Shown here in pieces: positions 1 through 5,364 of a stretch of 11,076 bases of DNA. Under the pieces are notes generated by a model that did not search any database, was not told the DNA's origin, and saw only the letters and a program-made list of their open reading frames with translations. The DNA is taken from assembly GCA_023267515.1 (NCBI GenBank), contig JAHFNF010000017.1, positions 1-11,076 on the forward strand, read 5' to 3'. A program made the translations under genes and the position numbers. The DNA is from Candidatus Nomurabacteria bacterium. GTDB lineage: Bacteria > Patescibacteriota > Minisyncoccia > Phycocordibacterales > UBA9973. Numbering within the stretch: position 1 is the first letter of the stretch; each line of letters begins with the position of its first letter.

Positions 1-751
<751 letters not shown>

Positions 752-796: not shown

Positions 797-825
797 ATTA
801 TATACAAGCCAAAATCTTTTTGCAA
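797..825 (-). promoter_or_regulatory. Sigma-70-type promoter of dnaK
   Basis: Read on the minus strand, a TTGCAA -35 box (820-825) is followed after exactly 17 bases by a perfect TATAAT -10 box (797-802). The predicted start is near 790, giving a 5' leader of roughly 48 bases before the dnaK ATG at 742. No CIRCE element or sigma-32-like promoter is visible. The -35 box overlaps the left arm of the 28-bp palindrome at 823-850, so a protein bound there should block polymerase. Confidence 0.72.
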
Positions 826-850
826 GTTTTTCGTGAGCGCGAAATACTTG
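823..850. promoter_or_regulatory. 28-bp imperfect palindrome, candidate operator between divergent promoters
   Basis: The outer arms are CAAGT (823-827) and ACTTG (846-850); the inner arms are TTTCG (829-833) and CGAAA (840-844), with one more complementary pair near the centre (835/838). Eleven of the 14 base pairs of the dyad match. The dyad centre (836.5) coincides with the midpoint of the two divergent -35 boxes (820-825 and 848-853), and the arms enter both boxes. This geometry suits a dimeric repressor controlling both dnaK and the regulator gene at 883. The symmetry is read directly; the operator function and the identity of the binder are inferred. Confidence 0.55.
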
Positions 851-876
851 TCAAAAGAGAATAAACACTATAAAAT
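848..876 (+). promoter_or_regulatory. Promoter of the PaaX/Cas2-like gene, probably leaderless
   Basis: On the plus strand, TTGTCA (848-853) and TAAAAT (871-876) are 17 bases apart. The TATAAA one step to the left would give 15. Transcription would start about 7 bases past the -10 box, at or within a base of the ATG at 883. The mRNA therefore seems to have no 5' leader, which agrees with the absence of any Shine-Dalgarno. The -35 box overlaps the right arm of the palindrome at 823-850. Confidence 0.6.
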
Positions 877-882
877 ATAGCT

Positions 883-1422
883 ATGAGTAAAAAGTCCCCT
901 CAAAATGCCATTTTAAAGGTCTTGGGTAGGAAAAAGGCAGTTTCCCTAGAAAACCTTAAAAATGAAGCAGAAAACAGCATTTTAGACCAAAAAAAGGGCT
1001 TCAAAACCCAATATTCAATCGCTCGTGCCATAAAAAACCTCGTTGAAAGCGGAATGGCCGAAACCCTGCCTTCCGATCAAGGACAATACCTGCGCCTCAC
1101 TTCCGCCGGCCGAAAAAAACTGGCCACTTCCGAGATTTCCGAGGGCATTCTCCCCGTCCCCGCCGTTTGGGATGGGCTTTGGAGAATCATCATTTTAGAT
1201 TTACCGGAGGAGCGCAAGCAGGAGCGCGAAGCGTTACGCTACCTCCTCAAAAAAGCGGGCTTCGCCTGTGTGAAAAATTCTGTCTGGGTCTCGCCTTATC
1301 CATACGAGCACCTTTTTATGAATATCAAAAAAGATCTCGGGCTTTCCACCGAGCTTATGATTATCGTGACGGAAACGATAGACGAGGAAACTAAAACTGA
1401 ATTTTTCAAACTGACAAAATAA
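883..1422 (+). CDS. PaaX-like regulator: winged helix plus Cas2-like domain
   Basis: A 179-residue two-domain protein. Residues about 8-80 look like a winged-helix DNA-binding domain, with helices around 42-57 and an arginine-rich wing ending RLTSAGRKKL. Residues about 95-170 resemble the central Cas2-like ferredoxin fold of PaaX-family repressors: WDGLWRIIILDLPEE (96-110), a helix with KQEREALRYLLKKAGF, then VKNSVWVSPYP (130-140) and a final strand ELMIIVTETID. Asp106 sits where Cas2 nucleases have their first-strand Asp. No CRISPR repeats, cas1 or phenylacetate genes are present, so neither CRISPR adaptation nor phenylacetyl-CoA sensing is supported. The gene stands alone on the plus strand, divergent from dnaK and convergent with the secreted orphan. 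The palindrome in its promoter suggests autoregulation and possibly control of dnaK. Fold assignment is fairly confident; the target and any ligand are unknown. Confidence 0.75.
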   Translation: MSKKSPQNAILKVLGRKKAVSLENLKNEAENSILDQKKGFKTQYSIARAIKNLVESGMAETLPSDQGQYLRLTSAGRKKLATSEISEGILPVPAVWDGLWRIIILDLPEERKQEREALRYLLKKAGFACVKNSVWVSPYPYEHLFMNIKKDLGLSTELMIIVTETIDEETKTEFFKLTK

Positions 1423-1467: not shown

Positions 1468-1935
1468 TCAGTTCGCTTTTTCTGCGGTGACAAGCAGCAA
1501 GTAGCTGGCATTGTAGCTGAGAAGTCCACTCGAAGCAATTTCAGAGAAGCTAATCTCTGTGTCTCCAAATACGGCTACCGGTATCCAGGCGTGTCTTGGG
1601 TGTTCCACATTCTGTTCTGAGAACATAAACACCTGACCTATGATTGGCATTGGATGGAGAAATTGCTTTAAATCGTTTCCCAGGATGAGCCCATCGTGCT
1701 CTTTCAGGTAAGCAACACACTGTTCCTCTGAGGCATCACTCAGTTGGAGGATTTTCACCTCAAACTTTTTGTCGCCTATGTGGACATTAAACGAGGTTAT
1801 CGTTTCTCCGATAGCCGGAGAGCTGCGCGGTTTGAAATGCTTATTGCTTTGCGCGGAAGCAAAAGAAATATGAAGTGACAGCATTAATGCTATCAGCACC
1901 ATGCCCCGTAGGGACTTTGCGATTTTTCTTTTCAT
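1468..1935 (-). CDS. Secreted protein of unknown function
   Basis: I do not recognise this 155-residue protein. It starts with a textbook Sec signal peptide: a basic n-region MKRKIAKSLR, a hydrophobic core GMVLIALMLSLHISF (residues 11-25) and a type I cleavage site after ASA (26-28). This would release a mature protein of about 127 residues beginning QSNKHF. There is no lipobox, no second membrane segment and no repeat. The mature part has a single Cys (73) and looks like a small mixed alpha/beta domain, with strand-like stretches SFNVHIGDKKFEVKIL (48-63) and YLLLVTAE (145-152). It lies between grpE and the shared terminator and has its own promoter just after the grpE stop. Nothing ties it functionally to the chaperones. 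No Shine-Dalgarno is visible before the ATG. It could be an orphan or lineage-specific family. Confidence 0.8.
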   Translation of the reverse strand: MKRKIAKSLRGMVLIALMLSLHISFASAQSNKHFKPRSSPAIGETITSFNVHIGDKKFEVKILQLSDASEEQCVAYLKEHDGLILGNDLKQFLHPMPIIGQVFMFSEQNVEHPRHAWIPVAVFGDTEISFSEIASSGLLSYNASYLLLVTAEKAN

Positions 1936-1999: not shown

Positions 2000-2569
2000 C
2001 TACTTCATCCCGAAAACATTTACTCGCGAAGCGCGAAGTACTCTATCTCCTATTTTATAGCCAGCCTGGATGATTGAAGCAATGGTATGATCCTTCTCCT
2101 TATCCTCGGTATCAATAGTCTCAATGGACTGGTGAAGATTTGGGTCAAATTTATCTCCTATTTTTGAATCAATTGGAACGACGCCATAATCAGCCAGCAC
2201 CTTCAAAATCTGCTGATGGATGTATTCCACACCTTGGCGCCAATTTTTATCTACTTTTTCCCAGGCCTCTTTGTTTGCAAAAGCCATATCAAAGCTATCT
2301 AAAACTGAAATAAAATCGGTCAGTATCCCCTCCTGCACAATATTTTTAAAATTAACCGCTCTGTCCGCCTCTTCCTTTCGGTAATTCACAAATCCTGCCC
2401 GCTCTTTCTGCCAGCCAGTCAAATATTCTTCTTTTTCCTTCTTCGCCTCCTTTAAATCCACGCGGAGCTTCTTGAGGGTTTTCTTCAAATCCTCCTCTCC
2501 ATCATCATTGAATTCAAATTCAACAACCTCAGACTGATCTTCTGGGATTTTTTCCTCTTCATCATTCAT
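2000..2569 (-). CDS. grpE: GrpE, nucleotide-exchange factor for DnaK
   Basis: Releases ADP from DnaK and so drives substrate release in the Hsp70 cycle in the cytoplasm. At 189 residues it is a normal size. An acidic disordered N-terminus (1-27) leads into a long charged helix (about 28-75) that forms the coiled-coil dimer. A second helical segment (about 76-130) follows, then the beta-domain (about 131-189) that inserts into the DnaK cleft, with FDPNLHQSI (141-149) and the family signature GYKIGDRVLRASRVNV (170-185). It is the last gene of the rpmJ-rpsI operon, 18 bases after rpsI, with no promoter or terminator in the gap. Its usual partners dnaJ and hrcA are not adjacent, and dnaK lies two genes away. 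Its start is preceded by the AATATAAAnnT motif instead of a Shine-Dalgarno. Confidence 0.95.
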   Translation of the reverse strand: MNDEEEKIPEDQSEVVEFEFNDDGEEDLKKTLKKLRVDLKEAKKEKEEYLTGWQKERAGFVNYRKEEADRAVNFKNIVQEGILTDFISVLDSFDMAFANKEAWEKVDKNWRQGVEYIHQQILKVLADYGVVPIDSKIGDKFDPNLHQSIETIDTEDKEKDHTIASIIQAGYKIGDRVLRASRVNVFGMK

Positions 2570-4761: not shown

Positions 4762-5364
4762 CTATCGGCTATAAAATTCAAGCACTGTGTTTAGGTCAAG
4801 GAAAGTCTCAATGTTTTTCGGCTTGTCCTTGATCGACCCTTCACCTTTCTCCGGGTTGAATGCAAGCCAAGCCGGAGGATTATATTCTTTTAATTTTAAG
4901 GCTAAACCTTCAAAAAGTTTTTTAGTCTTGCTCCCTTCTCGAATTTTTACGATATCTCCCGCCTTTACTTCAAAGGAAGGTATGGTGACTTTTCTATCAT
5001 TTACCACGATGTGCCCATGGGAGACCATCTGGCGAGCAAAAGCGCGAGTGTTGGCGAGTCCCATCCGATAAATAGCATTATCCAATCTTGCTTCTAGTCT
5101 TTCGTAAAGCTTGTCCGCAGCGCCAGCACCTTTTGCTTTCATAGCATTTTCCACATAGTTTGAAAGCTGACGTTCCGTGATTCCATAAGAAAAACGAATT
5201 TTCTGCTTTTCTACTAGGGCCGTGCCATATTCAGAAAGGGCTTTTGGGCGCTTCCCGCCCTTGACAAATTTACCAGAAGAAGCAGAAAACTTCGTGGTCT
5301 GGCATTTGTCATAAACTCCTGGACCTAGGCGACGGCAAATTTTAAATTTTGGTTTTGATATCAT
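4762..5364 (-). CDS. rpsD: Ribosomal protein uS4 (S4)
   Basis: Primary 16S rRNA-binding protein that starts 30S assembly and, in E. coli, represses its own alpha operon. The 200 residues are close to the usual 200-210. The N-terminal region has only Cys10 and Cys21, so the four-Cys zinc site of some S4 proteins is absent. Conserved parts are EKQKIRFSYGITERQLSNYV (52-71) and the S4 RNA-binding domain (about 92-155) with RLDNAIYRMGLANTRAFARQ (93-112), HGHIVVNDRKVTIPSF and VKAGD. The C-terminal tail EFYSR matches the family. It lies 29 bases after rpsK; the start context is A/T-rich with no Shine-Dalgarno. Confidence 0.97.
   Translation of the reverse strand: MISKPKFKICRRLGPGVYDKCQTTKFSASSGKFVKGGKRPKALSEYGTALVEKQKIRFSYGITERQLSNYVENAMKAKGAGAADKLYERLEARLDNAIYRMGLANTRAFARQMVSHGHIVVNDRKVTIPSFEVKAGDIVKIREGSKTKKLFEGLALKLKEYNPPAWLAFNPEKGEGSIKDKPKNIETFLDLNTVLEFYSR

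Follow-up and report, generated by a model that had tools for sequence, protein, structure and literature searches.

HrcA is a repressor of chaperone genes and has CIRCE, an inverted repeat at the dnaK or groEL promoter, as its operator. CtsR as well as HspR with its operator HAIR repress clp or dnaK operons. Palindromes are also part of the anatomy of RAYT, in which a single gene lies between like palindromes. Little seems to be known about gene regulation in Patescibacteria, to our knowledge. A literature search, which covered few subscription journals, was carried out on PaaX and on heat shock, HrcA or CIRCE in Patescibacteria, Parcubacteria and the candidate phyla radiation; it yielded no circuit like the one described here and no paper on PaaX and Cas2 together. 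PMC6651687 has a TetR-type regulator as its subject. PMC9493321 describes E. coli PaaX as a repressor that competes with RNA polymerase at its own promoter and at those of neighbouring operons, with TGATTC(N27)GAATCA given as the site; phenylacetyl-CoA relieves this repression and is said to bind to the C-terminal part of the protein. Here, a palindrome beside dnaK is described that is conserved in many species within a group of tiny uncultured bacteria for which no HrcA was detected. Judging from sequence comparison, it is most likely the switch with which a PaaX-like protein lowers its own expression and that of the chaperone gene.

The locus and the PaaX-like protein

The window, i.e. the whole stretch of DNA that was analysed, has 11,076 nucleotides (bases 1-11076 of contig C3) and belongs to a genome of 644 kb. 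Its minus strand carries the 5' part of dnaK at 2..742 (Pfam HSP70, E 2.4e-112), cut at the window edge, which is also the contig end. Divergent from it, the gene of a PaaX-like regulator with 179 aa is located at 883..1422 on the plus strand. The grpE gene (2000..2569, minus strand) lies apart from dnaK in the window and has no motif there; in other families having the system, grpE-dnaK mostly follows directly behind the operator. Ribosomal protein genes, rpoA and alaS are also present, their names being a reading of the translations. Between the regulator and grpE, a 155-aa ORF (1468-1935, minus strand) has a start that looks like a signal peptide by eye and remained without a Pfam match at E ≤ 0.1. 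When the ORFs of the window were read through, none stood out as a phenylacetate gene.

The earlier note had read the adjoining plus-strand gene as a winged-helix protein with a PaaX-type Cas2-like domain, and Pfam and a structure model agree with this. The winged helix comprises approx. residues 6-86 and the Cas2-like PaaX_M domain residues 94-172 (PF20803, E 7.8e-21). With 74.4 bits at a cut-off of 24, PaaX_M is the only Pfam family that passes its cut-off, and 48/48 relatives scanned match it at E ≤ 0.01. The N-terminal PaaX winged helix (PF07848) gave no match for the window protein at E ≤ 0.1. In the AlphaFold2 model (pLDDT 84.2, pTM 0.52), a winged helix of three helices and a two-stranded wing is predicted together with a ferredoxin-like domain; given the pTM of 0.52, the orientation of the domains is unsure. 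The best PDB match of the model is E. coli PaaX (8a39). On the PaaX equivalog TIGR02277, the protein scored 37.6 bits with a cut-off of 264.55, and by that family's own cut-off the predicted regulator is not a PaaX. It ends after PaaX_M, so that the C-terminal domain of PaaX is absent (179 aa, with 305 residues in the E. coli PaaX chain). For the CRISPR Cas2 model TIGR01573, 15.4 bits were obtained, below the cut-off of 24.5. Named relatives of the protein belong for the most part to Candidatus Nomurabacteria and other Candidatus Paceibacterota.

The palindrome and the divergent promoter-like sites

A long dyad, the putative operator, extends over 815..858 in the intergenic region of 140 nt. 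It consists of 19-nt arms (815-833 and 840-858, 84% complementary) and a 6-nt gap, and contains a conserved 40-nt core at 817-856 with the consensus TTTTGACAAGTATTTCGCGnnCGCnAAATACTTGTnAAAA. CAAGT (823-827) and ACTTG (846-850) as well as TTTCG (829-833) and CGAAA (840-844) mirror each other about 836.5. The dyad of these elements with 11/14 pairs, as proposed in the earlier note, could be confirmed from the letters; its proposed length of 28 bp could not, since the arms reach 815-858. The best dyad of the intergenic region has 17/22 pairs, a value reached by 0/300 dinucleotide shuffles. The window's own centre TGAGCG deviates from the usual CGACCG/CGGTCG, which counts against the operator model. 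No Rfam structure matched at the dyad even at E ≤ 1.

The dnaK promoter-like site is found at 797..825 on the minus strand (-35 TTGCAA at 825-820, 17 nt, -10 TATAAT at 802-797), and its -10 position is mirrored in relatives. That of the PaaX-like gene is found at 848..876 on the plus strand (-35 TTGTCA at 848-853, 17 nt, -10 TAAAAT at 871-876). The dnaK -35 box is within the left arm and that of the regulator within the right arm. The dyad had been claimed to overlap both boxes and to share their midpoint; both points hold, with one -35-like hexamer in each arm and 836.5 as common centre. Since the -35/-10 boxes are mirrored, the palindrome sits over both divergent promoters. TATAAT-like -10 hexamers at a spacer of 17 were observed on each side in 39/80 of the named loci introduced below; on the regulator side, such a hexamer is equally frequent at spacers of 12 and 17 in the 80 loci, which is evidence against the operator model. 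Three loci (L007, L009 and L011) have an extra leader with hairpin-like repeats, seen by eye, between the operator and the regulator start codon.

Conservation and linkage to dnaK

PaaX_M relatives were searched for in 297 genomes of the window's order, and 117 of them have one at E ≤ 1e-5. Nineteen ortholog loci stand apart with E-values of at most 9e-40, the next being 1.5e-25. In a tree that also contains 52 other PaaX_M proteins, 17 orthologs (two of the 19 were left out) group as a single clade with a support of 100/100. The ortholog adjoins dnaK or grpE-dnaK, or is upstream of a dnaK operon, in 19/19 genomes. Divergent dnaK or grpE-dnaK is on the same short locus in 18 of them, and in the 19th (G205) dnaK is 2 kb off behind co-directional genes. 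A gapless 40-nt block aligns across 18/19 loci, and the remaining one (L014, genome G046) has a small insertion. The dnaK-linked protein of this genome (L014:1286-1618, minus strand) is without most of its winged helix, and the palindrome with the small insertion is kept; that it outlasted the loss of the winged helix counts against the operator model.

The strength of the putative operator is its conservation between genomes and not the symmetry of individual copies. Symmetry alone is weak evidence in the relatives, as at least 25 of 300 shuffles equal it in 11/19 loci. The best intergenic dyad is centred exactly on the operator in 16/19 loci and is off by 2 nt in L014, while in L006 and L020 another dyad located elsewhere is the best one.

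A degenerate 31-nt pattern with 3 mismatches gave counts close to those of the reversed control, and a profile model was used instead. It detected the motif at E ≤ 1e-4 in 19/19 ortholog genomes versus 0/278 others (best there 7.7e-4). Its filters lose some weak matches, and because it had been trained on 18 of the 19 sites, held-out tests count more. A search with the motif alone brought up another three genomes of the same genus (E 1.2e-4 to 6.6e-10), all with the site between a PaaX-like gene and dnaK. A sample of 383 genomes of the class gave 18 matches at E ≤ 0.002, eleven of them in the window's family; the other seven (7.7e-4 to 2e-3) were taken as chance. Weak model matches in G044, G112 and G218 are inside ORFs and were likewise taken as chance; that in G253 is intergenic. 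For 29 control dnaK loci from genomes of the order without the ortholog, the best upstream score was only 3.9. Genome G059, which shares its genus with an ortholog carrier, has neither a PaaX relative at E ≤ 1e-5 nor the motif at E ≤ 0.1 nor dnaK at E ≤ 1e-60.

The named Paceibacteria loci are those 80 of 426 relatives that ranked best in protein similarity; some of their genomes are also among the 19. Among these best 80, the motif is present in 80/80 and dnaK is on the fetched piece in 77/80. In the remaining three pieces, the contig breaks off at a distance of 0.1, 0.6 and 1.4 kb from the operator; L213 and L230 show other co-directional ORFs at the contig end, and therefore dnaK may or may not follow there. 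PWM scores in the best 80 were at least 22.8 at the operator and at most 11.0 at the next best place of the same locus. They comprise 75 distinct 40-mers, 70 of which are absent from the training set. The motif holds 1.32 bits per column versus 0.38 and 0.50 in the flanks, and its mirrored columns pair (Watson-Crick) to 72.5% in register versus 25-38% when slid. The check suggested in the earlier note, namely that the dyad be conserved while its flanks drift and that the gene be syntenic with dnaK elsewhere (19/19 genomes and 77 of the best 80 named loci), thus came out in favour of the proposal.

Covariation was less favourable. For the 3' letters of the mirror columns, it was not above the shuffles of the tool, which is evidence against the operator model, and only the centre pair stands out in the 80 loci. 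Covariation was therefore dropped as proof of pairing and reliance was placed on register and conservation. The operator centre is AC in 47/75 and GT in 24/75 of the distinct 40-mers; the commonest core is not self-complementary and both orientations occur. A plain symmetric dimer gives no explanation for an AC or GT centre, a further point against the model.

The median distance from the operator is 29 nt to the regulator start and 109 nt to dnaK. The operator is more than 350 nt from dnaK in 15/77 loci, and the listed ORFs in between are co-directional with dnaK in an operon-like manner. In 14 of these 15 loci it is still within 125 nt of the regulator, with L228 as the exception.

Known chaperone repressors and further targets

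HrcA (PF01628) was detected in 0/297 genomes of the order at E ≤ 0.001, the control genomes being positive in 7/14 cases. The window was scanned with the generally known motifs of CIRCE, HAIR and the CtsR box. CIRCE had no match with up to 3 mismatches, in agreement with the earlier statement that no CIRCE/HrcA site is present, and HAIR had no site within 3 mismatches either. One CtsR box-like site at 4794 is at chance level.

Outside dnaK, the five strongest sites, all from family f53, are directly upstream of clpB-like genes (Clp AAA+ chaperones). For the Clp protein of G236, ClpB is the best NCBIfam model with 1175.5 bits, just below the cut-off of 1232.1; the other Clp proteins with sites were matched to each other with 65-73% identity. 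A sixth, weaker clpB-like site was found in G128. Altogether, such sites are present in 6/18 upstream regions examined and, as evidence against, in 0/8 of the window's family. The cores of the dnaK and clpB sites match best within one genome, and 8/720 permutations were as good. A further point against is that 23 loci with hsp20 or groEL genes gave no operator at E ≤ 0.1. The groEL gene (PF00118) itself was found in only 3/19 ortholog genomes. Sites at several chaperone genes, as expected for a heat-shock repressor, are thus given by dnaK, grpE-dnaK or a dnaK operon in 19/19 genomes plus the clpB-like genes.

The suggestion that the protein takes the role of HrcA can be kept in part. It may apply to dnaK/grpE and, in some relatives, to clpB, but the protein is not the general HrcA replacement of the order because 278/297 genomes have neither a PF01628 match nor the ortholog.

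Palindromes around other PaaX_M genes

A paralog set of 52 other PaaX_M genes of the order (L002, L021-L031, L271-L310) was taken from the better matches, L271 and L272 being included because a weak model match adjoined them. Enough upstream sequence was available for 51. The best upstream palindrome of 13-6-13 geometry is centred on CGGTCG, CGACCG, CGGCCG, CTATAG or CGATAG in 42/51. Perfect pairing (13/13) occurs upstream of 17/51 paralogs, while the best value was 12 in 1020 shuffles and 10 inside genes. The arms differ from paralog to paralog.

When the class centre CKRYMG was required on both sides, a palindrome was found before and behind the gene in 46/51. The two bracketing palindromes agree in at least 26/38 letters in 45/51 (median 34) versus 60/2304 cross-locus pairs (median 16). 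Of the five paralogs without bracketing, four have just 91-138 nt behind the gene. In an earlier, looser count (43/51, including a spurious pair in L289 and missing two cut-short units), the centres were a median of 657 nt apart, with 26 pairs inverted and 17 direct. Class-centre palindromes with at least 11/13 pairs numbered 0 in 268 kb of control loci versus 50 in 90 kb of paralog loci. Nine were found in 475 kb of named dnaK-clade loci, five of them being the dnaK operator and two located elsewhere. The remaining two (L203:2814 and L219:3505, i.e. 2/80 dnaK-clade loci) lie less than 80 nt behind the regulator with arms unlike those of the operator, and are possibly a remnant right end. Because 45/51 other PaaX-like genes are bracketed, the centre class goes with PaaX-like genes and not with dnaK, and this is the strongest argument that the neighbouring protein reads the dnaK palindrome.

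A palindrome-PaaX-palindrome unit behind rplE in G253 (L316:700-1670, minus strand) is absent from G106 (L326:2080-2270), a close relative with 96% identity in rplE. Each of the two genomes has a solo palindrome at the matching place, the outer arms of which resemble those of a PaaX-like gene resident in that genome. Solo palindromes with arms like those of a PaaX-like gene elsewhere in the same genome were observed at L316:140-180, L326:2718-2756, L101:1537-1569 (by eye), L322:834-872 and L323:882-920. The pattern looks like mobile palindrome-ended units or like operators co-evolving with their proteins. On the protein tree, CGRYCG centres are clustered and CTATAG centres are not. A hydrophobic N-terminal segment (first 70 residues) is present in 49/52 paralogs versus 0/17 dnaK-clade proteins and is possibly a membrane anchor.

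With more doubt than confidence, we propose that the PaaX_M genes of Paceibacteria are REP/RAYT-like palindrome-gene-palindrome units, in which each protein would recognise palindromes having arms specific to it and a common centre of the CGACCG/CGGTCG/CTATAG class. One such unit would have been domesticated beside dnaK and would have lost its matching right palindrome as well as the N-terminal hydrophobic helix. Its left palindrome would have become a two-way operator, copies of which were recruited to clpB, giving a new chaperone repressor in a group without recognisable HrcA. The dnaK repressor may accordingly be a settled member of a palindrome-flanked family, and this origin is the more novel part compared with the repressor itself.

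Proposed circuit and alternatives

From the gene, the dyad, its conservation, the synteny, the mirrored promoter boxes, the clpB sites and the lack of an HrcA match, all read from the sequence, we infer binding by a dimer, repression, heat as signal and the mode of sensing. The palindrome is very probably the operator of the adjoining short PaaX-like protein, which would repress its own gene and dnaK until unfolded protein builds up. Its predicted part as autoregulatory repressor of itself and dnaK is well supported, and a heat-shock switch with heat as presumed signal is likely. Bound as a dimer to the inverted half-sites (outer ACAAGT/ACTTGT, inner TTTCG/CGAAA), the protein would cover the -35 box of either divergent promoter and keep RNA polymerase from both. 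Its own gene and dnaK would thereby be repressed, as would grpE-dnaK in the other families and, in some, clpB. Upon accumulation of unfolded protein, repression would be lifted and chaperones would be made. As the most likely trigger, the repressor would lose activity on heating or would need free chaperone to stay folded. Such triggers are those of HrcA- or CtsR-type circuits.

The circuit could also be real and not serve heat shock; in the manner of PaaX, a small molecule or growth signal would act on the protein, which would then only set the chaperone level. This is rather unlikely, although the window protein has a predicted PaaX-like fold and E. coli PaaX, according to PMC9493321, represses its own promoter and is lifted by phenylacetyl-CoA. 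The targets dnaK, grpE and clpB-like genes constitute a protein-quality-control set. Moreover, the protein has 179 aa compared with 305 residues of E. coli PaaX, is well under the PaaX family cut-off and is devoid of the C-terminal part that is said in that paper (PMC9493321) to bind the ligand.

Binding of a real operator by a regulator other than the PaaX-like neighbour is very unlikely. The link between protein and site is one of genomic association only, and G046 kept the site with a protein lacking most of its winged helix. However, 19 genomes have both site and ortholog and 278 others have neither at the thresholds used. In 14/15 loci with genes before dnaK (L228 excepted), the operator is no more than 125 nt from the regulator, and the palindromes of the paralogs belong to the same class while having arms of their own.

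It is even less probable that the palindrome was left behind as one end of a genetic element flanked by palindromes and has no regulatory role. While 45/51 paralogs lie between two like palindromes, a close relative lacks one bracketed unit at the corresponding site, and L203 and L219 (2/80) have a class palindrome with other arms less than 80 nt behind the regulator, the single copy of the dnaK clade is sharply conserved and in register with two promoters, and further copies are located at clpB-like genes. Finally, mere back-to-back sigma-70 promoters, whose two like, outward-facing -35 boxes would create the symmetry, hardly come into consideration in spite of the -35 hexamers within the arms and the mirrored -10s, given that the inner TTTCG/CGAAA and parts of the centre, which are no promoter elements, rank with the best conserved columns, that no such block is present at the 29 dnaK loci of ortholog-free relatives, and that PaaX-like genes remote from dnaK are also flanked by palindromes of this class.

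Comparison with known systems

An operator read by the PaaX-like protein would provide a concrete regulator, operator and target set for Patescibacteria that is open to laboratory testing. It would extend the known chaperone repressors by another protein family and link a Cas2-like fold with the DNA palindromes on either side of its gene. With CtsR and HspR/HAIR, the system shares the putative repression of clp or dnaK operons, but the window has no HAIR and no CtsR box above chance. The paralog genes, bracketed by like palindromes and accompanied by solo palindromes elsewhere, resemble REP/RAYT; they differ by a Cas2-like PaaX_M domain instead of a Y1 transposase and by a mobility that is putative here, and the dnaK clade as a rule has one palindrome. 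The protein has the winged helix and the Cas2-like domain in common with PaaX, the repressor of phenylacetate catabolism in E. coli and Pseudomonas, whereas it is only 179 aa long without the C-terminal domain, has another operator and is linked to dnaK. Like HrcA with CIRCE, it is a putative repressor of chaperone genes with an inverted repeat at the dnaK promoter, but it belongs to another protein family and has an operator of its own.
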